From: Ulota crispa
Taxonomy: Eukaryota; Streptophyta; Bryopsida; Orthotrichales; Orthotrichaceae
Length of the DNA: 64,000 nucleotides
NCBI GenBank assembly: GCA_963920765.1
Contig: OY987248.1
Span: 5,614,539-5,678,538 of the forward strand
Direction of reading: 5' to 3'
The first letter of the stretch is position 1. Every line of letters starts with the position of its first letter. Of this stretch, positions 13,328 to 49,112 are shown piece after piece. The notes under the pieces were generated by a model. It was not told the DNA's origin. It worked only from the letters and a program-made list of their open reading frames with translations, and ran no database searches. Made by a program: the position numbers and the translations under genes.

Positions 13328-13331
13328 TTAA

Positions 13332-14259
13332 CCCCTAAAGGCCCAAGTAGTTTTCTTCAATGAAAGTCACTATTAACTGCCACTTTGGGGGGAATGAGTA
13401 GGAAATAAAGTTTGTTTTGCAAATCCAACTATAGGATCTTGCCTTAGACTAGAAGAGGTACTTGTGGGAAAAAAATCAAGTCATTCTAGATGGAGAGGAG
13501 GGAGATATTTACATCTAAAGTGAAAAAAAAGGTCTTTTTTTGTGCTGTCCAAAACATTTCAGAAGCTTATGCCCACACTTACATGAAAAAAATTACTCTA
13601 CACAAAGTTGAGGTTTATTTTTTCCATGTAGCAGACCAAGTTAGATATGTGTAAGAGAATTTTCAAATCAATTGGAACTATACAACACATGGGGGAAAAC
13701 AATATGTAAAATGAAGTAGAGAATGAGTCAAATCACTAAATTGTAAAGAATTTAAATTATTAAAATGAAAAATGAAAATCCAAATGGTTATAATGTTTTG
13801 ATAAACAATCTACTTCCTTGGGTTTAGTTTAGGGTTTCAAAAAATTAAAAATTGTGGAAAAGAAAGAACTTCAAAGTTTATTTTAGAGTAGAGAATTCAT
13901 AACTTCCCACGAACTAAAACATCTCATAACTTTCATGTCATTGATTGAAGTTGAATGATTCAAAGCTTCCCACATATGAAAAAATCTAAAGAACCAATTT
14001 CAGATTTCTATTTTTAGAAAGTATAAAATTTTAAGAAGTTTTTGGGTTGCCTGGATTGCCCTCCTTCCCCCGGGTAGCAGAAATTCTTGCATATCTTCTT
14101 TGTCAAATGTAAGAATGACAAAAAAATTAGATTCCCGCGTAGGTCTTAGAATTTCCCACCTTCAATAAAAGTTTTAAAAAATCACAAAAACTAGATTAGC
14201 TATAAGTACATGCCCGAAATTTCAACTGTCCCCTTGGGGGATAGTTGGGCCTTAAGGGG
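13332..14259 (+). mobile_element. TTAA-flanked element, 928 bp (piggyBac-like MITE, long family)
   Basis: TTAA stands at 13328-13331 and again at 14260-14263. Left terminus CCCCTAAAGGCCCAAG; the right terminus reverse-complemented is CCCCTTAAGGCCCAAC. The closest relative is 47821-48746, nearly the same length. There is no transposase frame, so it is non-autonomous. TTAA targets with CCC-starting termini are the hallmark of piggyBac; assignment rests on that alone. Confidence 0.7.
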
Positions 14260-14263
14260 TTAA

Positions 14264-15280
14264 AATAAAGGTAGTGTAGTAAGAGAGCAAGTTACATTCA
14301 ATTCAAAACATGAACAAGGAAGGTGAAACCGTGAAAGCAAGAAGAGCACAAGAGAAAAAGTATTGGTTAAAACTTCACATGCAATAGGCCAAAAACTTAT
14401 GCATACACATTCTTCTCTTTTGAAAATGAGAAAGAAAACTTTTCAATCTTCAAGGAATGTGGCTTTTACAAATAGCAGGAGAGAGTGTCAACTACCAAGT
14501 TCCAAAGGTGAATAACAAGTTGTAAAGTGGAAATAGAAGTCAATGGGAGCACTTCTTCATGAAAAAGATGTATGAGTATCCCTTTTTATGAGTGAGGGGA
14601 ATAAAGAATGATATTACTTAGAAAAAGGGTAAAGCGGCAAGAAAGCAAGCTATATTCACTAGGGGTAGTCATAGTTGCTTTGAGATTGAGATTTCCGTGA
14701 AGATTGAGAAATGGTTGAGTGAATGTAGGAGCCAATGGAACTGGAACTATGGAAGCACTTCTTCATGGAAGGAGGTGTGACACCCCTTTTGTGGGTGATG
14801 GAGAATGAAGAATGAAGAATGGACAATGTTTTACTTAGAGGAAGGCATAGCGGCCACCAATTGGAGGAGTAGAAAAAGCAAAGGTGAAAAGCAATTCACG
14901 AGCAAGGAAATTGTGGACCATGATAAGAATTCTCACACAAATAATATTCTCATGCCATTTTCTCCACGCTTGGGGGACAAGAATTATTTTTTTCAATCTT
15001 CACGGAACTAGCCTCATGCCACTCGTGGACATTGCAGCACATCAAATTTCTATGAAGATTGAGAACCGCAAAAACGAACTTTGACTACCCCTACTATAGA
15101 ACATGAACAAGGAGAGTGAAATTGTGAAAGCAAAAAAACCATAAGGTAAACTTGTAAAAAGAAAAAAAAAAAATGTAATGGTAAAAACTTCACATGCAAA
15201 AAGGTAGAAACTTCTTCAAGTAAGAAAGAAAACTTTTCAATTTGATACCTTTGAATTGGGTACAAGGTAACATTTTGTGT
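14264..15280. repeat. cluster of diverged dispersed repeats
   Basis: Segments at about 14330-14510 and 15120-15250 share a motif set (AAAACTTCACATGCAA, GAAAGAAAACTTTTCAA) with 15585-15730 and 18960-19120. The pieces are short, diverged and overlapping. Reading frames at 14805-15084 overlap one another and look accidental. Confidence 0.45.
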
Positions 15281-15284
15281 TTAA

Positions 15285-15526
15285 CCCTTGAACGCCCAGC
15301 TCAAAATCCGGTTTTGGCAAACCTCCTTGAAGTCAAAGTGCCCCTATAAATTGAAAAATACAATTTATAAGATTGAAACCATACAAATTGTTAGTAGGAA
15401 GCATTTCCATTGTGATGGGCTTGATTGGAGGTGGTTTCACCAAAGGAGCAATGAGGTTACCTCAGTCAAACTTGCGTTGACCCAGCTTTTGGAGAGACAT
15501 TATAATGTCTCTTGGGTGCTCAAAGG
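15285..15526 (+). mobile_element. short TTAA/CCC element, one end decayed
   Basis: TTAA at 15281-15284 followed by CCCTTGAACGCCCAGC. The right end reads GGGTGCTCAAAGGG, the complement of that terminus, but the expected TTAA has become GTAA. About 242 bp, no gene. It belongs with the TTAA/CCC elements of this window. Confidence 0.55.
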
Positions 15527-16057
15527 GTAAGGTGGAGTACAAAATGGTACCTCTATTTTTCCCAATTTAACGAATAACATGTTATTGATAAGAACTTCAC
15601 ATACAAAAAGGCAGAAGCTTCTTCACAAGCATTCTTCTCCTTTGAAAGTGAGAACGAGAACTATTCAATCTTCAAAGAATGTGACTCTTGCTAAATCAAG
15701 GAGAGAGTGCCACGTCCCAAAGGTGTGACTTCTCTCGATGCAGCAGCAGTTACACCTGAAGGCTGAAGCCCAATAGAAGCTTCAAAAGAGGAGTAAGGTA
15801 GCGTGATGAGGTGAACTCTGAAAGACCGTAACTTACGGTCAATCCAGGCAGAACTGCAGTCCAGTCCACTGAGAGTCAGACCCATCTCTCTGGCTCAGAG
15901 ACGACATCGACGACCCTGCTATCTCCACTCTGACCCTGCCCTTCTGGACGAGAAGAAAAAGAGCAAAGACACTCTCAGTGCTTTCCAAGTTTCCATGCAC
16001 CCGGTCAGAAATTTCTAGAAACCATATAAACTTGAGTAACACATCGAGTTGCACTAA

Positions 16058-16326
16058 ACACCATATTATTTAGGTAAATTGGGAAAGAACAGTACATTCC
16101 GGGACTTTCAACTATTTCTGTCATTGTGTACAATTTAACATATTACAAAAAAACAAGTGTGTATTTTCTTGTACAATATATAGTGAAGTTTCAGTGATTG
16201 TCTCCAAGAATCTCAAACGATTACAACTTTAAGTTATAGTTATTAATGCCAATATTTATTGTATGTAAGATTAAGGTGGAGTATAAAATGATCCCTCTGT
16301 TTTTCCCAATTAACCTAATATGGTGT
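16058..16326 (+). mobile_element. palindrome-ended MITE, family CACCATATTAGG, copy A
   Basis: Ends are inverted: CACCATATTA..GTAAATTGGGAAA at the left and TTTCCCAATTAACCTAATATGGTG at the right. A sister copy sits at the same place in duplicate B (19478-19724), so it was present before the duplication. A third, 160-bp version with the same ends lies at 18577-18736. Confidence 0.6.
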
Positions 16327-17183
16327 TACTAGAATACTAGGTAAAAGATTGAGTTGTACCAAATTATGTGAAGATAAGGCTAAACTTCCACAGTTCCGCC
16401 CCTACTCAACAACACCCTCATATATACTACCCAACTAATAGGGTGCGTAACGTCCAATCCCGATAGGAAGTAGGTGCATTCTTCTGTCCTTTTCCAAGGT
16501 TGGGACTTGAGATCACTTAAGTCATGCCACGTGTCCCAACATGAAGGAGGAAGTAAAATGAGCCTAAAGTAGTTTCAATTGGGTGTTATTGAAAATTACA
16601 TTGAGTCTAGAGGTTGGGCAATGGGTTTCAAATTTCAAAGCACTTTTGACTCCCAAAATTCACAGTCATAATTTCAGCTTTGCAAATAGATATTATGAAA
16701 AATTTGCAATCCCCATATTTCTTTACCTCCTACATGGTAAAGGAATTTAAAATATTTGTTGCCTCAAACTTTCTTTTGTTCAAACTCTCTTTTGTAGTTG
16801 GTTGTTGCAGAATCGCTTTAATAAGTTATCAGGGAATGGGGTGCTTCCCAGTTCCCACCTTTATCACTTGTCCGACAGTTCTAGACTCTCCCCACAGTTA
16901 AAAGGTAATGTACGTCGTACGAGAGTTCCAGCTTTTTTTCCCCACAGTCAAGCTTGTTTGCTGATCTCACACACCCCCGTCCAGCAATGTACTGTACATA
17001 AATAATTATCCTGCAAAAATCCAGATCGAGTCTGAGTGTTCGTCATTCGAAACATACCTGATCTTCGATCGAGTTTTGTGTCGAGGTGAGTCTCGTTTGT
17101 ACGGCAATAATACATTCCGTGCCTCGAACTCCACGCCTGACGTCGACGTTGAAGGTTTGCTGGCGGCTGTGACTTGAGAGCAG

Positions 17184-17550
17184 CATGCTACGATAATTCT
17201 AGAAGGAAGGAAGACAGATTTTCAGGTGATAAAGCTTCGTGATTAGTGCATGACAGTTCTAGAAGGAAGTGTAGAGACATTTCAGGTGATAAAACTTGGT
17301 GATTGGCGCATTACAGTTCCAGAAGGAGGTCTAGAGAGACATTCAGGTGATAAGACTTCGAGATTAGCGCATGACAGTTCTAGAGGCAAAGAGAGAGATT
17401 TCAGGTGATAAAGCTGAAGTCGTGATTAGCGCATGACAGTTCTAGTCTAGAAGGAGGAGAGAGATCTCAGGTGATAAAGCTTCGTGATTAGCCTATGACA
17501 GTTCTAGAAGGAGGAGAGAGATCTCAGGTGATAAAACTTCGTGATTGGAG
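17184..17550 (+). repeat. minisatellite, about 6 units of ~60 bp
   Basis: Each unit contains CATGACAGTTCTAGAAGGA, a purine-rich stretch, then CAGGTGATAAAGCTTCGTGA. Six units can be counted here; the matching place in duplicate B (20270-20401) has only two. The difference points to expansion or contraction after the segmental duplication. Confidence 0.8.
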
Positions 17551-17589
17551 GTCTAGTGGCATTAGTAAGCAAGCAGAGGCAGGCGATGA

Positions 17590-17765
17590 GCATCGCTCAA
17601 TTTAAACTGGCTAAGTTTTGCAGGGTTGCTACCAGAAAAGAGTATGCAGCTAAATTTTTGTTGAACTTTATAGTGTTAAATTTGAAAACTTGAGCTTTTT
17701 GGCATTGATTTTAGCCACTTGAGCTACAAGTAAAAATCCTATTTGGGAGGGATCACTAGTGAGCA
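17590..17765 (+). repeat. ~180-bp repeat unit, copy 1 of 4
   Basis: Contains AAACTGGCTAAGTTTTGCAG near the start, AGTATGCAGCTAA in the middle and TTTTAGCCACTTGAGCTAC near the end, followed by GATCACTAGTGA just before an ATG. Other copies: 20435-20600, 20993-21163 and 21174-21353, plus a diverged trace at about 55975-56035 in a HUB intron. Confidence 0.7.
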
Positions 17766-17838
17766 ATGGATCTACCAGGGGGGCACGGCTTCTACAGACA
17801 GTCGATGACAGGCTCGGATTCCACCGAATGCACTGAGA
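17766..17838 (+). pseudogene. 5' fragment of the unknown 109-aa reading frame
   Basis: The first ~24 codons match the frame starting at 20601 (MDLPGGHGFYRQS) with few changes, including loss of three bases near the end. After GAGAAG the sequence switches to the inside of a long TTAA-family element. This copy is therefore a truncated duplicate, not a working gene. Confidence 0.7.
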
Positions 17839-18552
17839 AGCCTTTGACGGTTCCTATATCAAAAAAATTGCTCAGCGCAAAGTTGAGGTTTATTTTTTCC
17901 ATGTAGAGGACCAAGTTAGGTATGTGTGGGAGAATTTTCAAAAATTTGGAAGTGTGGATCATACTTTGTAAAGTCTTGCAATACCGTAAGGCCATGAAAT
18001 TTTCATATACGCTAGGCAAAATTGGAGAATTTATGTAAAATTCATAAATCTGAATTACTTTGATCCAAATGCTGAAAACCAAGGAATCTTAGTTTACTAC
18101 AACTTGGAAAAAGAAAAAGTCAAAAAAATAAAATACACAAAGAGCTCAAAAAAGGAAAGCAATAAACTTTACAAAAGGCAAAAAGAATGGAGGTTTGGGA
18201 GTCCCATACCTACCTGCTAACTAAAACTTCTCATAACTTTCATCTCATCAATCAAACCTGAATGATTTAAAGATTCCCAAATTTGCATAATTCTAGAGAA
18301 CCAATTTCCGATTTTCTTTTAAAAATTGCAATTTTGATTTTTTATTTGGGCTGCCCGCCCTTGCCTTTTTTCAGAAATTCATGCATAACTTCTTCAATAA
18401 TTGTCAAAATGAAGAAAAATTTAGATGCCCAAGTAGATCTTTGAATTCCCCACCTTCAATAAAAGTTTCAAAAAATCACAAAAAGTAGATTAGTTGTAGG
18501 TACATGCCCAAAATCCATTTGTCCCCCGAGGGGACAGTTGGTCCTTTAGGGG
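17836..18552 (+). mobile_element. 5'-truncated long TTAA-family element
   Basis: Aligns with about 48020-48746, and less closely with 13550-14259. The right end is intact: GTCCTTTAGGGG then TTAA at 18553-18556. The left ~200 bp are missing. The break coincides with a short shared stretch (GAGAAGCC against AGAAGCC), suggesting an end-joining event. Confidence 0.65.
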
Positions 18553-18576
18553 TTAATATTCATTAAATTTGGAAAA

Positions 18577-18736
18577 AGCTTACAACATCATATTAAGTAA
18601 ATTGGGTTAAAATGCAATTTTGGGACTTTTAGATTTTGTATTTTTTGAAGAAAATTTATTAAATGCACTTTAAAAAATACAAAATCCAAAAGTCCCAAGA
18701 TTGCATTTTTTTCCCAATTTACTTAGTATGGTGTTT
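18577..18736. mobile_element. short palindromic MITE, family CACCATATTAGG
   Basis: Almost fully palindromic over 160 bp: CATATTAAGTAAATTGGG at the left, CCCAATTTACTTAGTATG at the right. The arms are joined near TTATTAAATGCAC. Same ends as 16058-16326 and 19478-19724 but without their inner sequence. Confidence 0.65.
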
Positions 18737-19477
18737 TACATATTGGGACTTTTAATTCTTTTGTTTTTTAAGAATTTTTAAGTGATTTGGAATGAATATT
18801 ATGATTACTTCTTCAAGACCTTGCATCAATGATGTAATGTCTTACAAGAATTATCTAAAAAAAACCTCACTTCAAATCACCAAATATTCTCACAAATGCA
18901 AAATCTAGTATTCCTAAAATACATTTTGGAACATTATTTTTTCCCAATTTAATGAGTAACGCGTTACAAGGAAAAAAGAGAAATTTACTGGTAAAGATTT
19001 CACGTGCAAAACCCAAAAACTTCTTCACAGGTCCTTTGGAAGTGAGAAAGAAAACTTTCCAATCTTCAAAGAATGTGGCTTTCTTAAATCGAAGGGACAG
19101 TGTCACGTACCAAAGGTGTCAATGACTCATCTCGATGCAGCAGCAGTTAAATTTGAGTTACACTGAAAGGCTGAATGCCCAATAGAAGCTTCAAAAGAGG
19201 GGGTAAGGTGGTGTGATGAGCTGAACTCTGAGAGAGCGTAACTGGCGGCTCAGTCCAGTCCAGAACTGCAGTCCAGTCCAGTGAGAGTCAGCCCCATCTC
19301 TCTGGCTCAGAGACGACATCGATGACCCTATCTCCACTCTGACCCTGCCCTTCTGGACCAGAATTAAAAAAAAAGAGAAAAAGAGAAAAGACACTCTCAG
19401 TGCTTTCCAAGTTTCCATGCACCCGGCCAGAAATTTCTAGGATCCATATAGGTAAAAGATCGAGTTGCACTAAACAC

Positions 19478-19724
19478 CATGTTAGGTAAATTGGGAAAAA
19501 CAGTACATTGTGGGACTTTCACTATTTCTGTCATGGTGTACAATTTAGCATATTACAAAAAAAAGGCATGCATTTTCTTGTACAATAGTGAAGTCTTAGT
19601 GATTGCCTCCAAGAATCTCAAACAATTACAACTTTGAGCTATAGCTATGTCTACATTTATTGTATGTAAGATTAAGGTGGAGTACAAAATGATCCCTTTG
19701 TTTTTCCCAATTTACTAATATGGT
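19478..19724 (+). mobile_element. palindrome-ended MITE, family CACCATATTAGG, copy B
   Basis: Counterpart of 16058-16326 inside duplicate B. Left end CACCATGTTAGGTAAATTGG, right end CCAATTTACTAATATGGTG. Inner sequence matches copy A closely (TACAATTTAGCATATTAC and neighbouring stretches). No coding potential. Confidence 0.6.
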
Positions 19725-20269
19725 GTTAGTGTGTTACTAGGTAAAAGATTGAGTTGCACCAAAATATGTGAAGATAAGGCTAAATTTCCACCCATAGTCA
19801 ACAATGCCTCCATACTACCCAACTAATAGGGTGCGGAATTTCCAATCACAGTAGGAATATAGGTGCTTTGGAATGCATTCTTCTGTCCTTTTCCAAGGTA
19901 TTGGGACTACTTAAGTCATACCACATGTCCCAAAGTGTAGGAAGTGAATGAGTGGAAAATAGTTTGACTGTTATCACAATTACATGAGTATAGATGTTGG
20001 ACAATAGATTCTAAAGTACCTTTTGACTCCCAAAATTCAATTTTGCAAATAATAATCATGAAAATTTCCCCATCCCAATACTTTTTATCTTCCTACACGG
20101 GAAAGGAAGAATATTCGTTGCACCTCAAACTCTCTTTTGTACTTTGTTATTGCAGAATCGCTTTAATAAGTTATCGAGTATGGGAGTGCTTCCCACCTTT
20201 ATCACGATATTCATTTAAAAGAGAAAAAGTGACATTTTGGGACTTTTGGATTTTATAAATTTTAAAGAG

Positions 20270-20401
20270 CATGCTACGACAGTTCTAGAAGGATCCAGAG
20301 AGATTTCAGGTGGTAAAGCTTCGTGATAAGCGCATGACAGTTCTAGAAGGAAGTTAGAGAGATTTCAGGTGATAAAACTTGGTCACTGGAGGACGAGGGT
20401 T
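20270..20401 (+). repeat. minisatellite, 2 units of ~60 bp
   Basis: Two units of the same repeat as 17184-17550, starting CATGCTACGACAGTTCTAG. It lies about 200 bp upstream of the unknown reading frame and could be part of its 5' region; that is inferred from position. Confidence 0.75.
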
Positions 20402-20600
20402 AAGTTATTAGCTAGCTAGCAAGCAGAGGCAGGCGGTGAGCATTGCTCTCTCTAAACTGGCTAAGTTTTGCAGGACAGAGTATGCAGCTAAAATTTTTTT
20501 GAACTTTGTAGTGTTAAATTTGAAAACTTGAGCTTTTTAGCATTGTTTTTCAGCCACTTGAGGTACAAGTAACAATCATATTTGAGATCACTAGTGAGCA

Positions 20601-20930
20601 ATGGATCTGCCAGGGGGGCACGGCTTCTACAGACAGTCGACGACTGGCTCGGATTCCACCACGGAATGCATTGAGAAGGTGGAGGCCATGATCAGCACGG
20701 CCATTCTGCACCAGGAGGACGTGTGGAACATGCTCTTGAGCTTGTTTCCGGAGAATCCAGAAAAGCTTGGTGGCTATGGAGACGGGGCGCTGGTTAGGGT
20801 TGCGGTGCAGGCCCACATACCGGAGGCGGTGAAGGACACGCTGGAGAAGGCCATGGATTGGTCTCGCTTGGCTCAGTGCCGGTTGAAGGGACTCATCACC
20901 GACAACCACCCCCCACACGGACGGAGTTAA
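20601..20930 (+). CDS. unrecognised 109-aa protein, uncertain gene
   Basis: A GC-rich frame in an AT-rich neighbourhood, begins MDLPGGHGFYRQS and ends HPPHGRS. It is mostly hydrophilic with an amphipathic, probably helical middle (VEAMISTAILHQEDVWNMLL, later IPEAVKDTLEKAMDWS). No signal peptide, membrane segment or known motif was seen. The start codon is shared with the truncated copy at 17766, and the sequence on both sides is duplicated too, so similarity alone does not prove selection. The stop is followed directly by AT-rich repeat sequence. The antisense strand also has a long frame here (20550-20969), so coding on this strand is likely but not certain. It may be one exon of a longer gene. 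No function is proposed. Confidence 0.45.
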   Translation: MDLPGGHGFYRQSTTGSDSTTECIEKVEAMISTAILHQEDVWNMLLSLFPENPEKLGGYGDGALVRVAVQAHIPEAVKDTLEKAMDWSRLAQCRLKGLITDNHPPHGRS

Positions 20931-20992
20931 TTCATAAAACTCTCTAGACTCTCTCTCGTTTGCCTGCAACTCAACATGCCAGTAGATCTACA

Positions 20993-22131: not shown

Positions 22132-22148
22132 CAAGACTTGGATGCACG

Positions 22149-24581
22149 TCACACAACAAGTTGCTTTCGAATTTGTTCCACTATGAGAGGGGGAGGCAAG
22201 CTAGCATCAGTGGCAAGGAGATCGCCCTCGTCCCAGGAAAGCTTGAGACCGTCGATCTGAGACTGAAGCAGAGAGGCAGGCATGTAGTGTTTTCCTGCCA
22301 TCTCCCTTGCTTTCACTCGTGTGGCCAGAATACCAGCGCTGCATTTCAGATACACAAACACCACTCGGGAGTTGAGGTCTCTCTCTTGTCGTGCACGGCT
22401 GATGGTGGTGGCAAAGTTCTCGTCCCTCTGGCAGGCCTCTTCGGATGGGAAGTCGTAGTCGGCAGTGCGGAGCAGGTCTCGGTACTTGGGGAGCAGAGCT
22501 GAGCATGCAAACACCACCGTTTGGCCTCTTAAGATGTACTCTATCATCAAGTCTCGCAGTGTCTCCAACCAGGGCATGCGGTCCTCATCCGTGAGGGCCA
22601 CGCCGTGTCTCATCTTCTCTGCAATTCAGGAACCAGGATATGTTCATGACATTCTTTACAAGCACCTCCACTGACTGATCAATCCAAGCATTCATCAACC
22701 ATTGAGATTATATCAACTTTTAACATGCTTTCTGACCAATCGTAGCATAGTAAAGAGACAACAGGAAATGTTCTTTACAAGCACCCCCTCTGACTGATCA
22801 ATCCAAGCATTCCTCAACCATTGAGAATTGTGTCGACTTTTAACATGCTTTCTAACCATTCGTGGAAATGGTCATGACATTCTTTACAAGCACCCCACTG
22901 ACTGATTAATCCAAGCATTCATCCACCAGTGAGATTGTATCAACTTTTAACATGCTTTCTAACCATTCGTAGCATAGAGAAGAGACAACAGGAAATGTAT
23001 GGAAGAAAATGTTGGCATGCTTTCTTGCCCTTCGTAACATAGAAAAGAGGCAACAGGAAATGTTCATGACGTTCTTTACAAGCACCCTCACTGACTGATT
23101 AATCCGAGCATTCCTCAACCATTGAGAATTGTGTCAACTTTAACATGCTTTCTAACCATTCGTAGCATAACAAAAGAGACAACAGGAAATGTATGGAAGT
23201 AAAAGTTGACATGCTTTCTTGCCATTCGCAGCATAGAAAAGAAACAACAGGAAGTGTATGGAAGTAGAAGAACAAAGATTATCACATTCAAGAGGACTAT
23301 GGTAAGTCATGTTAATTCTTTATGTACTTGGTGGAATCAACATTGTAGTATTGACATAACATTATTTAAAGCCCAATACCACTAGAATCCAAATCCATCA
23401 TTATGGTTTTATCAAAGGTTGATATACAGATTGTGTGCTTGCATTTTTGCCATTACTAAATTGACTTGTCTACCCAACAATTCCTACTTTGAAAACCCTT
23501 GAAAATAAAAAACCCTCGTCCTACCTTGTCCTCTTTAAAGATTCTAGTTAATCACGAATGCTTATATAAAACATGTATTGAGTAGAACTCGTACAAAGTA
23601 AAGCAGATAGGGTTTAGAATAAGGCCAAAATGGGTGCTAATCCATGCAAGCCATCTTGTGTAAGGTTTGGTAAAACTTTCTAATGAAAAGACCTATTAAA
23701 GGTTGATCTCATTAACCTAACAATTTCTGTAAACATACTAGTATCTTTCGTATTTGAAACAGGACTTCATCAACTTCAATTCTTTATAGAATTTAATTCC
23801 TTGAAACTTGATTCCAATAGAATTCAATTGCATATAAAATTCAATTCCCAGTAAGATTCGATTCACTATAGGATTCAAGTCCTTGAGATATAGTCACACA
23901 AGTCAATTCCTTATAGAATGTGATTCCCTTCAAAAACGTTAGGTCTATCCAGCAAGTCCTTTATACTAGTCTACTTTCAAAAGACACAACAACATATGCC
24001 AATTCAAAGTCTATGAGAGCAAACTAATACTTAAGCAAACTCCAATTTCAAAAATCTAACTAATCTTGGGCCAAATCTTAGGCCAAGTCATGATGCATTT
24101 CAATTCTCAAAGTAAAAGGTGCGCATTTATAAAGACTATAAGGAGAATGAACCAAAATACTAGAAAGAAAGAAAAGGAGGATTGACCAAATACTAAAAAG
24201 AAGAAAAATGAAACGACTTTCATAAATCTTTGCACAACTTGGTACTGACAAAACTGGAATGAGAGCAAACTAGTGCACCTTTGTTCTCAGCTGAATGAAA
24301 GTTGTCTCCATCAAAAAACTCGCTACTCAGCTTCGCAGCAAGAAGCTCCCCCACCGTCCTATCCACGAGAAACAACAATCCACATGCCATTTCCAAAAAA
24401 CAAACAAACCAAAAAACAAGTTCAAATCCTAACCCTAACTTCTCCAAGAACTCCCGCATTCAAAAAAATTGCAAGGAAACGTGAAATTGAAAAATCTCGC
24501 AAACGAATTCACTCGACAATCAGCTTACGATTTCCCGGCACCAGAGACTCCCATTACGACAATCGCTCGCCCGGTTTCCAT
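22149..24581 (-). CDS. gluconokinase, 3 exons
   Basis: Phosphorylates D-gluconate to 6-phosphogluconate, which enters the oxidative pentose phosphate pathway. Exons on the minus strand: 24581-24529, 24358-24279, 22618-22149; GT-AG junctions keep the frame and give 200 aa, close to plant and bacterial GntK proteins. The P-loop GVSGAGKST (residues 11-19) is split by intron 1, which lies inside the Ser codon. It is followed by DGDNFHSAENKEKMRHG and DEDRMPWL, the family's substrate-binding stretch. A GHYMP-like segment (KHYMPASLLQSQ) matches the conserved lid/second-half motif. Residues ~95-115 form a longer loop than in Arabidopsis. The start ATG at 24581 was chosen because it directly precedes the P-loop strand; no organelle-targeting extension is seen. 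Intron 2 (~1.66 kb) contains a tandem array. Confidence 0.9.
22640..23265 (-). repeat. tandem array in gluconokinase intron 2
   Basis: Four main units starting TTCTTTACAAGCACC at about 22651, 22770, 22878 and 23071. Each goes on through ACTGACTGATYAATCC and AACATGCTTTCTAACCATTC. The last two carry an extra sub-repeat built on AGAGACAACAGGAAATGTATGG. Unit spacing runs from ~100 to ~190 bp. No coding potential. Confidence 0.8.
23266..24278 (-). other. rest of gluconokinase intron 2
   Basis: AT-rich intron sequence. Around 23770-23930 a short motif with AATTCAATTSC recurs loosely several times (GAATTTAATTCCTTG, GAATTCAATTGC, AAATTCAATTCCC), suggesting a decayed short tandem repeat. No gene was seen. 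Confidence 0.45.
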
Positions 24582-24860: not shown

Positions 24861-24879
24861 GTCAGCTAAGTTAGTTGCT

Positions 24880-28462: not shown

Positions 28463-28824
28463 CCCATTAAGGACCAGTCGACCAGTTCCTGGTCGATTTT
28501 GACACTTTTCAGTTTGTAGAGAGAGCATGTCAAGGAATTTGATGACGTGACAAAGGGGACGAGTTTACGGAATTGAAAAGTGAAGAGTTTAGAACAATAA
28601 TTAGGCCAATTTGAGGTGGCATGTGGCTAGAGGGTTGAAAAAACTAAAAGAGTACCGGTTGAAAATACACCAATAAATGCAAAAAAATGATCATAACAAC
28701 AACTAAAGAGTGAGTGAGATACTTCCATCTATACAGTCAGATCTGTGGTAAACATCTGTATTCAATAACCCTAGAATTTCCCCCAAATGAAAATACAAAG
28801 GAATGCCCAACGGTCGATAAAGGG
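28463..28824 (+). mobile_element. TTAA-flanked element, 362 bp
   Basis: TTAA at 28459-28462 and at 28825-28828. Left end CCCATTAAGGACCAGTCGAC; right end reverse-complemented CCCTTTATCGACCGTTGGGC. No reading frame. Same terminal style as the other TTAA/CCC elements. It sits ~240 bp upstream of the aldo-keto reductase start. Confidence 0.65.
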
Positions 28825-35980: not shown

Positions 35981-38900
35981 ATGGCTGCCAAGCAGGCGTT
36001 GCAGAAGGCGCTGGACCCTCTCTGGAACTGGGCGTCTCGCCGTTACCAGGCTGCCGTCGCCAAGGAGCTCAAGAAATACGGTAACCCACCAAACCCCAAG
36101 CCCTAATTCGTTCTTCAGCTGCACTTCCGTGTTTTCTTTTTCCATTTACTGGTTCTGAGCAGTGAAATTATTTTGTGCTAAGGTAGTCTGCTCATAAACC
36201 GTCCAGGCATTAAAATCGCCCACCTTCTCAAATGTACCTTTACTGTACATGCTTCTTTTCATAGGTTTTCAAAATGTAGAATTATTGTACACTTGAGGAG
36301 GTGGGCGGTTTTAGAGACTTATGGCCTTTCCATTTCAAAATTTCATAACTAATTTCATAAAGTTCTAGAAAATATGAAATAACTTGGGTTAGATGTCGGT
36401 TCTTCTTGTCTTTCAAGGAAAATTTACTGAAAAATAGTTCAAGAAGTTTCACCTTCCCTAAATTTAGTTTCAGCCCTTAGATGGATGGTTTATGAGCACA
36501 CTACCTTAATTATTGCCTTTATGCTACACCAAAATTGGTGTGGCTAATTGTTCTATAGTATTTTTTGAAAATGTATAAAATATTTAGCCAACTTTTATAC
36601 ACGGGTTTGGAAGTAAGAGCACAGTTTTTAGGGTTCCACTTGATGATGTTGCCTCATCCTACTGGTGCAATATATTAATTTCTCACAAAACTATCATCAA
36701 ATTTAGCTTTGATGAAAGGTTGTAAGCATCCAACTTTACATTTGTAAAAAAAAATGTAGCCATCCTTGATACTCAACCATTTTTTGGTTAGAAAACCACT
36801 TAACCCTTGAACGCCCTTTGCGGCCAGCACAATACGGAGTATTTTTCTTGTATTTGGAGTGCATCCACACCTTTATTACATTTGAGATCAACAAAGAAGT
36901 TAAAATATAGATCAATGCTATTCTAGTGAGGTAGTTAAGATCCCAAATTAAAACTTTTTGTTGGTAGCAAATGCTAGTTATACAGCTGCGTACATAGTAT
37001 GTATTATAGTAGCTTGGTCCTATAAGGGTTAATGCTGTCTCACTCTATTGGTGATTTATTTTAACTTCTCACAAACCCATCATCAGATGTAGTTTTGATG
37101 AAAGGTTGAAAGCATTCAGCTTTACATTTGTAACAAAAAATGTAGCCATCCTTGCTACTCAACCATTTTTTGGTTAGAGAAAAAGGTAAGGCCACTTCAT
37201 TCTAAAATATTTTCTGTGGTTCTGAGTGGTGGTAAGTTTAACTGTGGTGGTGAAGGTCTGCGGTACGACGACTTGTTAGACGATCTGTACGACATGGACG
37301 TGAAGGAGGCGTTGAACCGGGTGCCACAGCAAGAGGTGGACTACCGCAATCAGCGTCTGAAGCGCGCTATGGACTACTCCATGAAGCATCAGTACTTGCC
37401 TAAGAACTTGCAGGTTTGTTTTCCTTGCATTGTTTGTTTGTGGAGTTCTAAGAAAATTGGACCAGGTGAAAATACTGTTTGAGCTATTAAAATGACCTTA
37501 TGATTGTGGTAAATCCGTGGATTTATTTTCAATGGGTATTTAGTGCGTGCATGTCCTTGATTACCTCAACATCTGAATGCACTGCACGTTGATTTCGTGA
37601 AGCCGAGTTCAAATAGCAAGTGGAAAACCTAGTCAGCTGACAGAATAGAGTGTGAGGTTATACTACAAGGAAACAGTGTCTGAATTGACAAAAATGTCCG
37701 AATTGACATGTTCAAATTTTTAAAAACTGACCAAATTGACAGCGTTCCCTTGTAGCAAGATAATTTTGTCCAAATTGACACGTCTGAAATGATTAAATGT
37801 GTTCCAAATGACAATAAAACGCAGTGACAAGAATGTCCAAATCAACACGTCTAAATGACAAAAAAAGATGTCCAAATTGACACTCCTCCTTTGTAGTGAC
37901 CTCATTTAGGTTTTATTTTGCGCATTATTATTCTTTCGCGAGGTCAAATAGTAGTTCCAAGAGATATTGTGGCAGTATAACATTTTTTAGCAGTTTGGAG
38001 AACTCAACCTTTTTTACAAAGATGAATATCGATAAAAAAAACAGAGATCCATAATTCTGACATTTTTTTGTATAGAGCATGTATAGGTTCAAGTGAGTGG
38101 CTAGCACTCTGTTTTCTTCCTCTAGGGTTTGGTGTCTCACTTGTGATGATTTGAATAATGTTCATGAGAGGGTTTTTGGATTTCTTTCCAAAGGGGGTCA
38201 AGGCAGTTACTCAACAACGTTATGGACAGCTCCTGTTGTCTTGGAACTTTTTTCTGATATTGTTCCTTATAGTGCACCAAATGGCTGTGAATATCCTTTA
38301 CATTTATCACGACGTACTATGTGATGGTGCAACATGGCATTAAAATTAAAATTGATACAGTGGTGCTTGGTTAACGTCAACCTTTGTAACAGAAACAATT
38401 GGATAAGATCACGGTCCACTCCCCTTTTGTCCAAGATGTGTATTATGAGCTTGGTTAAAGTCAAGTGCTTGCATACAATCAATGCTCACTTTTTGTCAAT
38501 GCTCATTTTGACTCATCAACTAGAAAGGCGTATGGTTAATGCACCAAAAACATGATTGGAAAAGCACCTTCAAAGTTGCGACCACCAACCACCAGAACTA
38601 AGGGAAGTAATGCAAACGAAATGCTTGGTTATGATCAATGTTTGGATACATTTAACATGGATATAGTTAACACTTTTTCCTAGCCCAAAGTGTTAACCTT
38701 ATCCAAGCACCACTATATTGGACTTTGGAGGGGCTTAATTTTGTGCTCCGAATCTTCGATCTTCCTCTGTATTTTAGCTCATATGGTCTCCATGACATTT
38801 CGCAGGCAAAACAGACTCCATACGAGCCCTACTTGCAAGATGCTTTGCAGCTGGTGAGTATCTTTGAACGACCGCTGTACTGCCGAAGTAACTATGTTTG

Positions 38901-39500: not shown

Positions 39501-39856
39501 CCCTTAAAGGATGGATGGATCATCGTGGCTTGCCTTGCCTGTAGCAATCTACAATGTTTTGCACATGGACACCAGTAGTATTGCTTCAAAAAGTTGGAAA
39601 AGTCAACAGTGCATGATGCCCTCATGAAAATTGCAAGAAGGGCATTTTGGGAGCTAACACCATGTTTTTGAATCTTATCACAATTTGGGTTACAAAAAAA
39701 AATGAATACATCTCAAGAGGTATTTTTTTATCTTCCATGATGGACCATGTGTTTATGGTCACTTCTAAAAAAAATCAAATGAAAAATGACTTTTTTTTGG
39801 ATCAGAGGATCATTTTTCAAAGGTGAAGGATGTTTTTTGTCCTTGACATTTAGGGG
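39501..39856 (-). mobile_element. TTAA-flanked element, 356 bp
   Basis: TTAA at 39497-39500 and 39857-39860. Ends CCCTTAAAGGATGGATGG and, from the other side, CCCCTAAATGTCAAGGAC. Inverted relative of 48751-49108, of almost equal length (both hold CATGGTGCACCATG-like and AGGGCA..TTTGGGAGCTAACACCAT-like stretches). It begins ~245 bp after the QCR7 stop. No coding capacity. Confidence 0.7.
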
Positions 39857-39860
39857 TTAA

Positions 39861-40708: not shown

Positions 40709-40710
40709 TA

Positions 40711-41793: not shown

Positions 41794-42223
41794 CCCTTAA
41801 ATTAGTGCTTTCTTTTTACCACATAACATGTAAAAAGAGTTTCCTTAGGAAACCAAAAAGCCGGCAATAAGAGTGCTCACGACAACCTATTAATATACAC
41901 AACTCAATCAACACAATCAGAGTCTTGTATCTCATTCTATGGTATTTCCTCTTATTGATATTGGCACTTTTGGTGTACTTGGTGATTCACTCAAATGACG
42001 TTCTAGCTAGCTGTACGGATTAAAATCCAACTTGGTACTACCAAAACTTAAAGAAATTCAACATTACCAATTACATGGTAATCCATAATCAACAATACAA
42101 AATGGTTCTCAACTACATACACATTAATTAGTCATCAAGAATAAAATTAGAGATTTGCGATGTAAATTGTACTAGTAAGATAAAACAAAGATCCTCCTCC
42201 ATTTCAAAAGTGGCCTTTTATAG
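41794..42223 (+). mobile_element. possible decayed TTAA element, 430 bp
   Basis: TTAA at 41790-41793 followed by CCCTTAAATTAGTGC. The next candidate right end is GTGGCCTTTTATAG before TTAA at 42224-42227, which would be shared with the following element. Terminal similarity is weak, so this call is tentative. Confidence 0.35.
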
Positions 42224-42227
42224 TTAA

Positions 42228-43781
42228 TCCCTCTAGCCCTAGGTCTTTATTTTGTCAAAAGACACTCAAAACTGTCATTTCTATTGCAAAGAGTAAAAAA
42301 GTTTGAAAATTGGTCTTTTTGCATATCTAAGCATAGGATCTTGTACTAAACTAGTATAAGAATGTGGAAAAAATATACCAAAAACTTTGACAGCACAAAT
42401 TGCAAGATATTTGAGTTTAAAGTGTAAAAACAAACTTTTTTGCACCTATCACGATTAGATTATTTAACTTTGAACATTTTTAACTTAAAATTTTTGAACC
42501 ACACAATTTTGAGGTTTATTTTTTTATGGTGAAAAGTTGAGTTAAGAATCTTTGGAAAAAATCTATAAAAAAAAATATTTAATTTTCATTCTTTAATCCC
42601 TAAAGGGCCCTTGGGCCCTAGAGCTACAGTACCAAATACGGTTGCAACCAATATTCAGAAGTTTGACTCAGCTAGAAATTAAGTGTTACAACCATACATA
42701 TCAAAGGGTAGTACAATGGTGGCTGCAAAATTTATTTTGAAGAGCCCTCAAAGCAGCTCAAAATATGTCTGTGCAGACGGTCATACATACGGCCGCAAAG
42801 AGCGTTTGGACCCTTCAGGGGTTAAGAAAAATATTAGCTAGGTAGAAGAAGGTACAAGATTGAACAAAAACTTAAATTGTAAATAATCCTGCAATGGAAT
42901 TAAAAACGCAATAATCCCAATGGTGAGATTGTTCTAGAAAGCAAACTTTGCCCTTTTCAACAATTTGTTTTGAAAAAATGTTAAACTTGCATTCAAAAAT
43001 GAAGTTTATATGCTGTTTTTCAAGATGATGCTTGAATTGCTTGAAAATTAGACTGTCCATTACTTTATCATAACTACTGTAGGTTGGGAGCAAATTCAAC
43101 AGGTCTTTGCCGAATCAATTATTTTTGAGAAAAACCCCATTAGGCATCTGATTTCATGATTAAACAAGATTAGGCACTTTCAAAAAAAGTTGTTATTATT
43201 TGGCATTCAACCAATTTTTTTAGTAGAGTTAAGCCTTTTTCTAAGCATCTTCCACTTTCTAAAATTAGCCCTTGGTATAAAATTTGCAGTAGATTGAGCC
43301 CTCTTGGAATCAACCTTGACCTTCCATTGTTAGTAAGCTTAATGACTTTTATAATATTTGACATTTCAATTTTTTGATTGGTTTGACATTGGGCACTATT
43401 GGAGAATAATTTATAGAATAATTAGGCAAAATTTTGGGGAATTATTTTATGCCAAATCTGCTATCAACCTATAGTAGTCCAAATGGAATGAATCAAAGCT
43501 TCAAATGTACATAAAACTATAACCAAAAGAGAGAGATAATAATTTTAAAAAATATCAAAGTTTTTGTAAAAACAATTGCAACCCAATCTCTCCAAATTTG
43601 TGCTTATCTAGGCATGACTTTTGATCATGAGCATATACTAGAATAAAAATTATATTCCCCTACAGCTACTATACTTTTCTATCTTCAAAAAAAGTTTCAA
43701 AAAATCAAAACAAAAATTGAGGCCATAGGCACATGCCCAAAATCCCATTTGTCCTTTGAGGGGACATCAGGGCTGTAGGGA
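42228..43781 (+). mobile_element. long TTAA-family element interrupted by a shorter one
   Basis: TTAA at 42224-42227 and 43782-43785. The left part aligns loosely with 13332-13480 (TTAATCCCTCTAGCCC, AAAACTGTCATT, AGGATCTTG); the right part has the family's ATGCCCAAAATCCCATTTGT and ends GGGCTGTAGGGA. The 225-bp element 42597-42821 with its own TTAA pair is nested inside. Diverged, probably the oldest member of the family here. Confidence 0.5.
42597..42821 (-). mobile_element. TTAA-flanked element, 225 bp, nested
   Basis: TTAA at 42593-42596 and 42822-42825. Ends TCCCTAAAGGGCCCTTGG and, from the other side, CCCCTGAAGGGTCCAAAC. Same length as 36804-37028 and inverted relative to it. GC-richer than its surroundings. 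Confidence 0.7.
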
Positions 43782-44069
43782 TTAAGAAGATTGGGATTTA
43801 GCTTGGCTATTTAGCTCTCGACCTAAATTTTTATTGGTAATTTTAGAAATGATAGTTTTTAACTAAAATTGTGACCTACTAACTGGTAGAACCACATTTA
43901 TACTTAGGTAAAACACTAGTAGAAAACTCCTTCCAAAACAACAGAAAACCAACAGTTTCTTGTTGATTTGGGCACTTGCCCACGCTAATTGACTAATTTA
44001 ACAGAATTCTGTAAAAAACTAAATACGTTCTGTTGATTTGGACACCATTATCTAAATCAACAGAAATTT

Positions 44070-45350
44070 TGGAATCTTTTGAAGATCTTTTGGGAATTTT
44101 TTGTGAATCTTTAAGAATCTTCAAGAATCTTTTGGAAATCATTGAGAATCTTTTTAGGATTTTTAAGAATATTTAAGAATCTTTTTGAGATTTTAGAATC
44201 TTTGAGAATCTTTTAGGAATCTTCATGAATCTTTGGAAATCTTTTGGAATCTTTTCAAGTTTTTTTCGAATTTTTGAGAATCTTTGAGAATCTTTGAGAA
44301 TCTTTGAGAATCTTTGAGAATCTTTGAGAATCCTTTAGGAATCTTTGAGAATCTTTGAGAATCTTTTGGAATCTTTGGGAATCTTTTCAATATATTTGGA
44401 ATCTTTGAGAATGTTTGAAAACAATTGAGAATGTTTGAGAATGTTTGAGAATGTTTGAGAATGTTTGAGAATGTTTGAGAATCTTTGAGAATCTTTTTGG
44501 AATCTTTGAGAATCTTTTGGAATCTTTGGGAATCTTTTCAAGTTTTTTTGGAATCTTTGAGAATGTTTGAGAACAATTGAGAATCTTTGAGAATCTTTGA
44601 GAATCTTTTGGAATCTTTGGAAATCTTTTCAAGTTTTTTTGGAATCTTCGAGAATGTTTGAGAACAATTGAGAATCTTTGAGAATCTCTTTGGAATCTTC
44701 AAGAATCTTTGGAAATCTTTGAGAATCTTTGAAAATCTTTTAGGAATCTTTGAGAATCATTTGGAATCTTTGGAAATCTTTTCAATATATTTGGAATCTT
44801 TGAGAATGTTTGAAAACAATTGAGAATGTTTGAGAATGTTTGAGAATGTTTGAGAATGTTTGAGAATGTTTGAGAATCTTTGAGAATCTTTTTGGAATCT
44901 TTGAGAATCTTTTGGAATCTTTGGGAATCTTTTCAAGTTTTTTTGGAATCTTTGAGAATGTTTGAGAACAATTGAGAATCTTTGAGAATCTTTGAGAATC
45001 TTTTGGAATCTTTGGAAATCTTTTCAAGTTTTTTTGGAATCTTCGAGAATGTTTGAGAACAATTGAGAATCTTTGAGAATCTCTTTGGAATCTTCAAGAA
45101 TCTTTGGAAATCTTTGAGAATCTTTGAAAATCTTTTAGGAATCTTTGAGAATCATTTGGAATCTTTGGAAATCTTTTCAAGTATTTTGGAATCTTTGAGA
45201 ATGTTTGAGAACAATTGTGAATCTTTGAGAATCTTTGGGAATCTTTTGAGAATCTTTTTTGAAATTCAAAAAATCTTTGAAAATCTCTAAGAATTTTCAA
45301 GAACCTTTTTGGAATCTTTGAGAATCTTTTTAAAATCTTTATGGAATTTG
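44070..45350. repeat. 10-nt satellite GAATCTTTGA inside the CACTA element
   Basis: A run of the decamer GAATCTTTGA and close variants (GAATGTTTGA, GAATCTTTTG). Because 10 is not a multiple of 3, the minus strand reads a 10-residue periodic peptide (KILKDSQRFS) with few stops in any frame. The resulting open frames are a product of the repeat, not genes. A 395-bp block, 44391-44785, recurs almost unchanged at 44786-45180. Confidence 0.85.
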
Positions 45351-46197
45351 TTAAAGTACTTCAAAATACTTGTAGAAATAGAATCTCTTTGACTGAATTA
45401 GAGTCCTTTAGGAATCTTTTTGTAAATCATCAAAATACTTTCAAAAAAACTATCACAATAGTTTAGGTTTGTTTTTGAAATCTTTCTAAAACCTTTTTGG
45501 ACCTCATTAAATTTTTTTGAAGTTTTAAAAAATAAAAGAAGTTTTCAAGAAAAAAAGAATCTTTTAGAAGTTTGAGTGTACATTGACTGGTTTTATTTTC
45601 TTTACTTTTCACAATTTGATAAGATTTAAAATTAGCAGCCTTTAAAGTCAAGTAAACACATGACCATAATAACAAAAAACTCAATAGTTTTTTGTTGATC
45701 TAAATATTTTTGGACACAACTTCACTTATTCAACAAAATTTTATATAAAACGTACAACATTTTGTTGTTTTAAATACCAAAATTTCTTTACAAACAAATA
45801 TAAATGATGCTCCTCAATTCTTTGAAGAAATCATAAATGTCCCTTAAGGATTTAAAGTACCAAAAATATCTTATTGTTACATGATAACCAAGTATATAGT
45901 TTAATGCAAATTCTTACAAGAAACCAAAGGTGATTTTTACATTTCAAATAACACAAGGATATATTTAACATTTCAAAATAGAAGAGTTTTTTATTAATTT
46001 TCCAAAATAATAAGAGTATAATTGATATTCTTACAAAAAATAAGGAATATTTTTTATGTTTCACATATTTTTGGCGTAAACTTGATATTTTGAAAGACTT
46101 AAAGGGTATTTTTAGTATATTTCCTTCTATTACTAACCATATGAATTAAAAAAAAAAATCTTATAAAATATTTTTATAAGCTTTAAAAGATGGGAAT

Positions 46198-46597
46198 TGA
46201 TATGTGTACCACACTCTTCCAAATACTACACCACACCATGAGGTAAATTTTAAATTTCTACCATCAAAAAGCTAAATTTGAAAATTTTGAATTCAGATTT
46301 GGACTTAGAGACCATGGTATTGTCTAGAACCATAAAAAAAGTTGCAATTCAACAACACCCAATGAAAAAGTTTAGTTAGGGAGAAAATTGTGAATTTTAC
46401 TTTTGTTTGTAAAAAAAATAAGCTTTTTCATTGGGTGTTGTTGAATTGCAACCCTTTTTATGATCCTAGACAATATCATGGTCTATAAGTCCAAATTTGA
46501 ATTTAAAATTCTCAAACTCAAATTTTTGATGGTAGAAATCTAAAATTTACCTCAAAGGTGTGGTACAGTAGTTCAAAGGATGTGGTTCACATATTAA
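46198..46597. mobile_element. foldback element (~400 bp) nested in the CACTA element
   Basis: Arms of ~170 bp. GTTGCAATTCAACAACACCC at 46341-46360 faces GGGTGTTGTTGAATTGCAAC at 46432-46451. Outer parts, ATATGTGTACCACAC and GTGGTTCACATAT, also pair. Only ~70 bp lie between the best-matched arms. Confidence 0.7.
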
Positions 46598-47119
46598 TGT
46601 CCTTACAAAATATCCAAAACTATTCAAAAGTCAATAGAATTTTGATTTTATAATTGCAAGGATTTAATTTCGTAACTTTTCACGACTTCATGTTATTTGA
46701 AGCTATCAAACTATGGAGGCTATTTTAACAAAATAAGGTTCTTTTTACAAAAAAACTAACACTAAATAATATTTATTAATGAATCCAACTTTTGCCTGCA
46801 ACAATTCTTATGAGATTTGTGAATTCCAAAAAAAATTTATAAACAAAATCAAAAGGATGGAAATAAACAATTTATTTAAAATTTCTAAACACCTTCTCTG
46901 ATTTTAGCTCATAACTTTTGATAAAAAGACTGAAATCCAAAAAAAATTGTTGGAGGTGAAAGTAAAATACATTTACCAACTTTTTTTAGTTTTAAGTTTT
47001 TTGAAAAATAGTCCTTTAATGGGCGGAAATAGCCTCCAAAGTCTACTGGATTACTAAAGACATGAATATTTAATGTACAAATAGAATCAAGATACTATTG
47101 TATGCATGTGCATTTGCAC

Positions 47120-47300
47120 ATTCTCTAGTGGTTTAGAAAATGTGCTAAAGTTGTGGAGTGTAAGAGGAGAGGTGGAGGGTTCAAACCCCGCTACCGGCAG
47201 CTGCCCGGGAGTTTGGGCAGCTGCATGGGAGTTCGGGCAGCTGCCCAAAAGTTTGGGCAGGTGCCCATCCCCCTAAAAAGTTTACATTTTCATAAAATAA
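47120..47300 (+). mobile_element. possible tRNA-derived SINE head with short tandem repeat
   Basis: TCTAGTGGTTTAGAA resembles a Pol III A box and GGAGGGTTCAAACCCC a B box about 50 bp downstream. An 18-21-bp repeat with GGGCAGCTGC follows, then AT-rich sequence. No full tRNA fold was found, so it is not called a tRNA gene. Confidence 0.4.
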
Positions 47301-47820
47301 AAACAAATTCTATGAAAAACAAATTTAAAAATGAAAAGAAATAGAATTGAACAACATAAAATACATAATAGAAATCAACAACAAATTAACAGAAAACTGT
47401 AAATAATCAACAAAAAATCAATAGAAAAGTACCCAAATCAACTTGACCAAATTCACAAAAAAAATCAACAGTTTTTGGTTGAAATTCTGTTGATTTTGTG
47501 CTGAATTTTCTACTAGTGAAAATTCAATGAATTTTGCATTTGAAAAGATCCTTTTTGGAGAGAATTGGATCAGTTGTAGTTCAAGGACTAGCATCACAAA
47601 TGTAGGCTACATAAATTCAAAATTGGGTTTTGCAAAAGGATTCAGTTTTCAAATTACAATCATAGTGATTGACTTTAATCCCATAATATCATTTATAAAA
47701 ACCATCAAATGCATTTTGTCTTTTCTCTAGGAATGTACTTATTAGCCCTTGAGTTTATAATCTAGCAAGTATTTAATAAGTGCAAGCAAAAGAAATAGAT
47801 GCAATTGAACACACTTTTAA

Positions 47821-48746
47821 CCCCTAAAGGCCCAAGTCCTTTTTTTATGAGTCATTGAAAACTACCACTTTTGGAGGAATAAGTAGAATGGTAGGAAAAA
47901 AAGTTTTTAGAAATCTAAATATGAGAGGTATTTGTAAGAAAAAATCAACTCATTCTAGATGTAGAGGAGTGAGATGTTGACATTTGAAGTGAAAAAAAAA
48001 GTTTTTTCTTGGCTGCCCAAAAAAATTAGAAGCCTTTGACCACTCCTATATCAAAAAAATTACTCTATGCAAAACTGAAATTTCTTTTTCCTATGTAGAA
48101 GACCAGGTTAGGTATGTGTGGGAGAATTTTCAAAAGAATTAGAGGTGTGAATTATACTTTGTAAAATCTTGCAATGTTGTAAGGCCATGAAACTTGCATG
48201 TACACTAGGCAAAACTAGAGGATATATGTAAAATTCAAAAACTTGAATTATTTTGATCCAAATGGTGAAAATGAAAACCAAGGAATCTTAGTCTACTACA
48301 ACTTGGGAAAAAAAAAGTCAAAAAACAAATACACAAAAAGCTCAAAAAAGTAAAGCACCAAAGTTTACAAGGGGCAAAAGGAATGGAGGTATGGGAGTCC
48401 CATACCTATCCTCAAACTAAAACTTCTCATAACTTTCACCTCATCAATCGAAATTGAATGATTCAAAGCTTCCTACATATATAAAAATCTAAAGGACCAA
48501 TTCAATTTTTAATTTAAAAAAAATGCAATTTTTGGTTAGTGCTACCCGATTCTCCCCTGTTTTTCCATTATTCATGCATAACTTCTTCAATAAATGTTGG
48601 AATGAAGAAAAACTTAGATGCCCATGTAGATTTTTGAGTTCACTATCTTCCATAAAAGTTTCGGAAAATCACATAAAGTAGTTTAGCTGTAGGTACATGC
48701 CCAAAACCCCACTTGGCCCTCGCGGGACCACTTGGGCCTTTAGCGA
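47821..48746 (+). mobile_element. TTAA-flanked element, 926 bp (long family)
   Basis: TTAA at 47817-47820 and 48747-48750. Left end CCCCTAAAGGCCCAAGTC; right end reverse-complemented TCGCTAAAGGCCCAAGTG. Aligns along its length with 13332-14259 and, from ~48020, with 17836-18552. No transposase frame. Shares its right TTAA with the next element. Confidence 0.7.
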
Positions 48747-48750
48747 TTAA

Positions 48751-49108
48751 CCCTTAAACGCCAACAAGGACAAAAATCATCCTTTGGCCTCCGAAAAACA
48801 CTATGTATAGCAGAGAACCTGATTTTAGCGTAAAAGTGACCATAGATACATGGTGCACCATGGAAAGCAAAATACAATCTCAGCTAAGGCATTCATATTT
48901 ATTGATAACCCAAATTGTGTGAAGATTTAGAGCCATGGTGTTAGGTCCCATGCTACCCTTTTTGCAATTTTCATAAGGGCACCAATTGCAACATGCACTA
49001 TTGACTTTTGTAATTTTAAGAAACAGTATTTTAGTGGTGGGCACCTGCCACAATATTGTAAATGCCATTGTAAAGGACAAGCACGACCACCCAACTGATA
49101 TTCAAGGG
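48751..49108 (+). mobile_element. TTAA-flanked element, 358 bp
   Basis: TTAA at 48747-48750 (shared) and 49109-49112. Ends CCCTTAAACGCCAACAAGG and, from the other side, CCCTTGAATATCAGTTGGG. Inverted relative of 39501-39856. Confidence 0.7.
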
Positions 49109-49112
49109 TTAA

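Follow-up and report, generated by a model that had tools for sequence, protein, structure and literature searches.

In the transposon piggyBac of Trichoplusia ni (T. ni), a standard transposon tool in animals, a DDE transposase cuts the DNA at CCC-type ends and joins it into the tetranucleotide TTAA. To our knowledge, piggyBac is common in animals and rare or unreported in land plants, as was also stated in an earlier reading of the DNA studied here that used its letters alone (hereafter, the sequence-only reading). The DNA in question is a stretch of 64,000 nucleotides from the moss Ulota crispa (contig OY987248.1, positions 5,614,539 to 5,678,538; hereafter, the window), in which that reading had noticed a set of short, TTAA-bounded elements. 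We conclude that these are very probably non-autonomous transposons of the piggyBac superfamily, i.e., miniature inverted-repeat transposable elements (MITEs) and internally deleted elements, which reside in the moss nuclear genome and were moved by a separately encoded transposase.

With the piggyBac superfamily, as represented by T. ni piggyBac and piggyBat of Myotis, the moss elements share the TTAA duplication, short inverted ends that start with CCC, and a homologous DDE transposase. Unlike in these 2 systems, the host is a moss, the end sequences differ widely among transposase loci, and most sampled transposase stretches contain stops. Furthermore, the transposase-encoding moss elements are approximately 5 to 7 kb long, compared to the 2.4 kb given for T. 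ni piggyBac in PMC2874221. Short, non-coding, TTAA-bounded elements also characterize the piggyBac-related MITEs of animals, for example coral MITEs (PMC2872659); in contrast to those, the elements described here have a land-plant host and exact 17-base ends that number 13,071 genome-wide.

TTAA was found directly outside both ends of all 8 elements that the sequence-only reading had listed with such borders (8/8, letters read), and the inverted ends, rightly described as imperfect, are identical at 14, 11, 9, 8, 11, 11, 14, and 9 of 16 bases in the 8 elements. Two of the elements begin with TCCC and one 3′ end reads TCGC; otherwise, the short inverted ends start with CCC. The original observation of TTAA-bounded, CCC-ended elements is thus confirmed. 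Such elements make up 5,477 bp, or 8.6%, of the window, a share that holds for this single chosen window and is no estimate for the genome. From the list of one-ended members, those at 11966, 15285, and 18552 indeed adjoin TTAA; the fourth, at 41794, reads TTAA-CCCTTAAAT. The elements and fragments are as follows:

13332..14259, + strand: full-length, non-autonomous element of the ~927-bp class, 928 bp, TTAA on both sides, ends CCCCTAAAGGCCCAAG and CCCCTTAAGGCCCAAC
47821..48746, + strand: full-length element of the ~927-bp class from a diverged subfamily, 926 bp, TTAA on both sides
42228..43781, + strand: strongly diverged element of the ~927-bp class, 922 bp without its 2 inserts, TTAA on both sides, ends TCCCT
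42597..42821, + strand: 225-bp TTAA element nested in 42228-43781
36804..37028, + strand: 225-bp member of a ~234-bp family, TTAA on both sides, with approximately 9 bp missing next to the 5′ end
39501..39856, − strand (relative to 48751): element of the ~357-bp class, 356 bp, TTAA on both sides
48751..49108, + strand: element of the ~357-bp class, 358 bp, sharing a single TTAA with its neighbor 47821-48746
28463..28824, + strand: 362-bp element, TTAA on both sides, 5′ end matching the 5′ end of a transposase-encoding family (L072 family)
11510..11966, − strand: one-ended fragment of the ~927-bp class, 93% identical to 13332, TTAA outside its end
17836..18552, + strand: one-ended fragment of the ~927-bp class, 81% identical to 47821, TTAA after 18552
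15285..15314, + strand: one-ended candidate, TTAA-CCCTTGAACGCCC, first 30 bases only

That TTAA is duplicated upon insertion can be read from the nested element 42597-42821. Copies of its host repeat (the 42228 type) on contigs C5 and C7 align on either side of the insertion point but lack the insert, and in both fetched copies (2/2, letters read) a single TTAA takes the place of TTAA-element-TTAA in the window. PIF/Harbinger elements duplicate a 3-bp TWA target; here, TTAA flanks 8 of 8 elements and a single TTAA stands in the empty site. The pattern extends far beyond the window: CCCYTWAAGGNCC occurs 15,470 times genome-wide, compared to 33 times for the reversed-pattern control, and the exact 17-base end including TTAA, TTAACCCYTWAAGGNCC, occurs 13,071 times, compared to none for its control. 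Therefore, 84% of the CCCYTWAAGGNCC ends follow TTAA (13,071/15,470). A lack of any genome-wide excess of TTAA at the borders had been named as grounds for giving up the piggyBac interpretation; the excess is present.

The same genome encodes piggyBac-type transposases. A search of the assembly with the PF13843 (DDE_Tnp_1_7) profile, in which 116 of 528 first-look candidates were scored and 14 genomes served as controls, revealed at least 120 matched stretches on contigs C1 to C11, including C7, the contig of the window, with a best E-value of 1.3e-73, and no match in any of the 14 control genomes. By eye, 10 of 120 stretches are free of stops and 110 contain them; since the search reads through introns, some of these stops may be harmless. 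When 6 transposase pieces were submitted to Pfam unmended, all 6 matched DDE_Tnp_1_7 only, above its cut-off. Moreover, a 476-aa piece from locus L072 is homologous to 2 solved structures, namely 6x67 (listed as "Transposase", which we take to be T. ni piggyBac; E-value 4.1e-20) and the piggyBat structure 9c0f (E-value 5.8e-17). Its first 2 catalytic Asp align with those of 6x67. At the positions that presumably correspond to the catalytic Asp motifs, the pieces from L006, L003, L008, and L073 read GVD/GID..DQ, while that from L072 reads GVN (by eye).

Two transposase loci stand out by their structure. At L073 (C1:1180709-1181995), the piggyBac transposase domain extends over 2 stretches, neither of which contains stops, and this locus is possibly an intron-bearing or retained gene. 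At C2:36765124-36780554, 2 stop-free piggyBac transposase stretches lie approximately 14 kb apart in opposite orientation; their 3′ regions are 99% identical, and the pair is a recent inverted duplication.

The transposase genes lie inside elements with ends of the type seen in the window, as established for L001, with both ends, and for the 4 copies of the L072 family. The L001 element spans 5,013 bp, with TTAA-CCCCTCATCGCCAA upstream of the transposase and TTGGCAATGAAGGG-TTAA downstream of it, and its inverted ends, which like those of the window elements are short and start with CCC, agree at 12 of 14 bases (by eye). Nearly the same 3′ end recurs at an equal distance of 1.36 kb at an independent locus, L083. 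In the L072 family, 3 relatives on C9, C8, and C7 share the structure of L072 and, at the 3′ side, terminate at the same TTAA. These siblings are 5,724, 6,753, and 5,726 bp long, and their 5′ ends agree with each other: (TTAA)CCCTTTAACGCTTGG, (TTAG)CCCTTTAAGGCTTGG, and (GTAA)CCTTTTAAGGCTTGG. The inverted 3′ ends of the family begin with CCCTTTAGC or deviate from it by one base (TCC and CCT in 2 copies), all of them beside TTAA. Further 3′ ends beside TTAA are CCCTTCACCGCC at L006 and CCCTTGCATGACC at L073. The search for a DDE_Tnp_1_7 gene that had been suggested on the basis of the window yielded matches in the same assembly, some of which are placed inside TTAA-flanked, CCC-ended elements.

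When 10 further transposase loci were inspected with a fixed pattern, a 3′-type end was found in 6 of 10 downstream windows compared to 42 of 240 control windows (p 0.004), and a seventh, CCCCTTGAGGGC at L086, was found by reading. The downstream end at L091 was rejected as a transposase end, as it belongs to an insert of the ~927-bp class. The 3′ end at L090 resembles a ~927-class end over 32 bp (84%) and may belong to a relative of the parent of the ~927-bp family. Across its last 550 to 700 bp, all of the at least 40 scored copies stop at the same TTAA, and L090 may be another short element. A 5′ end was not found for L090, where a ~927-class copy lies instead. Downstream of the L004 transposase, at a distance of 2.5 kb, lies one copy of the L090 end; these copies are so numerous, however, that the neighborhood could be due to chance. 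Taken alone, the downstream-end test is modest.

The first 45 bases of 28463-28824 and 15 other window ends were compared with five ends of the L072 family (three 5′ and two 3′), with the end of L076 taken one base too far left. Only the 5′ end of 28463 stands out, matching all three 5′ ends, with z-scores of 9.2, 12.4, and 9.1 (0 of 1,000 mononucleotide shuffles each), and an independent copy of this 5′ end at L035, TTAA-CCCATTAAGG, is identical to the same transposase 5′ end at 35 of 50 bases (z 8.0). Because of this match and the agreement of the L035 copy, 28463-28824 most likely derives, in shortened form, from a piggyBac family that encodes a transposase. When its 3′ end was compared with the two 3′ ends of the family, the z-scores were only 0.8 and 0.6, although the first 13 bases of this end differ from those of L072 at one position (by eye). 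For the ~927-bp, ~357-bp, and 225-bp families, the link to the transposases consists of the terminal motif only: their ends read CCCYT, 4 bases, G, 1 base, and CC, beside TTAA, a form that recurs at the transposase-adjacent ends CCCTTTAGCGACC, CCCTTGCATGACC, and CCCCTGAGCGCCC and nearly so at CCCTTCATTGCCA.

Several points weigh against a piggyBac origin of all these elements. No movement of the elements was observed. L072 carries Asn where the other transposase pieces carry the third catalytic Asp (by eye). It also lacks its own 5′ terminus, for which its siblings were used instead; at positions 126-140 of L072, the GGG-TTAA of another element stands at the TTAA inside CCCTTTAAGG, within the inverted repeat of L072, as if the terminus had been lost by insertion of a second TTAA element into that repeat. 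Among the sibling 5′ ends, exact TTAA is present at 1 of 3, the others reading TTAG and GTAA. No CCC-type 3′ end beside TTAA was found within 1.5 kb downstream at 6 of the 8 loci L001 to L008, and the downstream-end test decreases to 5 of 10 (p 0.02) without L091 and to 4 of 10 (p 0.09) if L090 is omitted as well. Finally, the 15 other window ends (both ends of 7 elements and the 3′ end of 28463) are, beyond the first bases, no closer to the sampled ends of the L072 family than expected by chance, with a best z-score of 2.7 in 75 comparisons.

The last point would fit a scenario in which another TTAA-targeting superfamily, such as Kolobok, gave rise to the ~927-bp, ~357-bp, and 225-bp families, with piggyBac accounting for the 28463 family only, since those families show no similarity to the sampled transposase ends beyond the first bases. 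Kolobok and T2-MITE elements generate TTAA duplications, too. Nevertheless, we consider this scenario unlikely, as the ends of the 3 families share their form with the transposase-adjacent ends, and the similarity between the L090 3′ end and a ~927-class end points in the same direction, albeit with the reservation that L090 could itself be a short element. Kolobok ends are not known to be of the CCC type; no search was aimed at a Kolobok transposase.

An origin of the TTAA borders in base composition, or in satellite units, rather than in target-site duplication has next to no probability: although the window is A+T-rich (37% GC), 10 of its 11 CCCYTNAANG motifs (both strands) are preceded by TTAA, whereas 60 second-order simulations of the window, which rule out a composition artifact, yielded a mean of 3.3 motifs and none after TTAA, in addition to the genome-wide excess and the empty site with its one TTAA. 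Other fetched loci, 234 kb in total, contain 49 such motifs, 34 of which follow TTAA; this set is non-random, as it surrounds copies of the elements as well as transposase loci, and overlaps the window by up to about 6 kb via 2 window copies (L012 and L042). Contamination of the assembly by a fungus, an animal, or an oomycete can be dismissed with equal firmness, even though piggyBac is best known outside plants, because the listed PF13843 matches lie on C1 to C11, the contig of the window included, and short elements occur intermingled with transposase loci, as in the case of a ~927-class copy at the TTAA after the 3′ end of L089.

Hence, of the 2 options offered by the sequence-only reading, the one in which a plant lineage hosts or hosted a piggyBac transposase is supported by the PF13843 stretches, the homology to 6x67, and the TTAA-flanked, CCC-ended transposase elements. 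In the mechanism we propose, a piggyBac-type DDE transposase encoded by the separate elements of approximately 5 to 7 kb would recognize short inverted ends beginning with CCCYT and cut the DNA out, and the excised DNA would be joined into TTAA, with duplication of the tetranucleotide. The short elements would have kept the ends and would borrow the enzyme. We infer that the transposases described here did the moving and that, for each short family, the enzyme came from one of several divergent transposase lineages, with most of the activity probably in the past.

The size classes also behave as families, in part as previously described. Alignment of class members was upheld for the ~927-bp class: 47821-48746 is identical to 13332 at 661 of 861 aligned bases and 42228-43781, without its inserts, at 583 of 859 (z 17.8), with the partial copies 11510-11966 and 17836-18552 joining them. 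A separate 1.5-kb class represented by 42228-43781 was rejected, as this is a 922-bp element of the ~927 type with 2 nested insertions. In the ~357-bp class, 39501 aligns with 48751 on opposite strands (250/340 identical, z 21.8). The 225-bp elements 36804 and 42597 are related weakly at most (132/197 identical, z 4.1), and 28463 aligns with neither class: its assignment to the ~357-bp class was rejected (best comparison 200/313, z 3.4), and no BLAST match was found for it within the window at 1e-4.

Searches of the assembly with the 928-bp element 13332-14259, the 358-bp element 48751-49108, and the 225-bp element 36804-37028 each returned at least 40 places. Among the best 40, the first query is matched over nearly its whole length in 32 and the second in 25; for the third, 39 matches begin at position 10 to 22, because approximately 9 bp next to the 5′ end are missing from the window copy (all counts by eye). 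Thirty fetched copies of the ~927 type (window copies included) comprise 24 with TTAA-C at the 5′ end, 20 with G-TTAA at the 3′ end, and 17 with both; the latter are 916 to 944 bp long and on average 94.7% identical to their majority sequence, with 93.7% for the closest pair. The corresponding numbers for 30 copies of the 225 type are 19, 19, and 11, with lengths of 225 to 234 bp, a mean identity of 94.3%, and 94.4% for the closest pair. Nothing among the fetched copies, which differ from the majority sequence by 5% to 6%, points to very recent movement; it should be noted that copies of both types were picked by similarity to window copies and, therefore, say little about the youngest copies of the genome.

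The second insert of 42228-43781 is of a different kind:

43077..43474, no strand assigned: 398-bp element within 42228-43781, flanked by TA (43075-43076 and 43475-43476) and not of the piggyBac type

With its inverted ends CTGTAGGTTG and CTATAGGTTG, it looks like a mariner-type MITE. It has 36 further scored places in the assembly, at 92% to 95% identity, and in another host copy (C2:19399853-19399854) the alignment coordinates, on which this statement is based, point to an empty TA.

Besides the transposons, the window contains several duplications. Direct repeats of 150 bp (36646-36795 and 37032-37181), which are 86% identical, stand on either side of 36804-37028, so this element sits between 2 units of a local duplication. 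A direct duplication of 1.3 kb (15582-16867 and 18985-20205; 77.6% identity) flanks the one-ended fragment 17836-18552. Self-comparison of the window further revealed local tandem repeat arrays at 44062-45500, 49458-50355, 22628-23270, and 17182-17548. Across the large contigs of the assembly, fragments of plastid psaA/psaB are spread (48 matches, 2 of which are the intact genes on C157), as are 5.8S rDNA fragments (14 matches). We regard C157 as the plastid contig, since its PsaA and PsaB are both intact. The best solved matches of its PsaB are 8htu, 6l35, and 7ksq, complexes of the moss Physcomitrium patens, with 8 differences to 8htu in 734 positions, so the PsaB likewise points to a moss host.

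Among the papers listed in the literature searched, whose coverage leaves out many journals, none describes piggyBac elements from a moss. In the moss genome paper PMC10619864, the 2 places where the word occurs read "piggybacking", and the available passages of the Pleurozium draft genome paper (PMC6723128) name no transposon classes. The system described here adds, with good support, a new member to the known piggyBac superfamily, in a host for which little documentation exists; it does not constitute a new kind of system.

A land plant thus seems to have undergone a large-scale invasion by piggyBac. Beyond that, we regard it as rather probable that piggyBac constitutes a long-resident, major group of DNA transposons in this moss, with several very divergent transposase lineages, each accompanied by numerous TTAA MITEs of its own, and many thousands of insertions in total, a radiation without counterpart for this branch of land plants in the literature searched. 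As the natural distribution of piggyBac in land plants is poorly documented in that literature, the moss case widens it, and with moss repeat libraries that lack a piggyBac class, a considerable part of the genome would be misclassified, given the 8.6% in this one window. Moreover, the elements provide a naturally occurring example in which to study how the enzyme entered plants and was maintained there, and they are a possible source of a plant-adapted transposase together with its ends.

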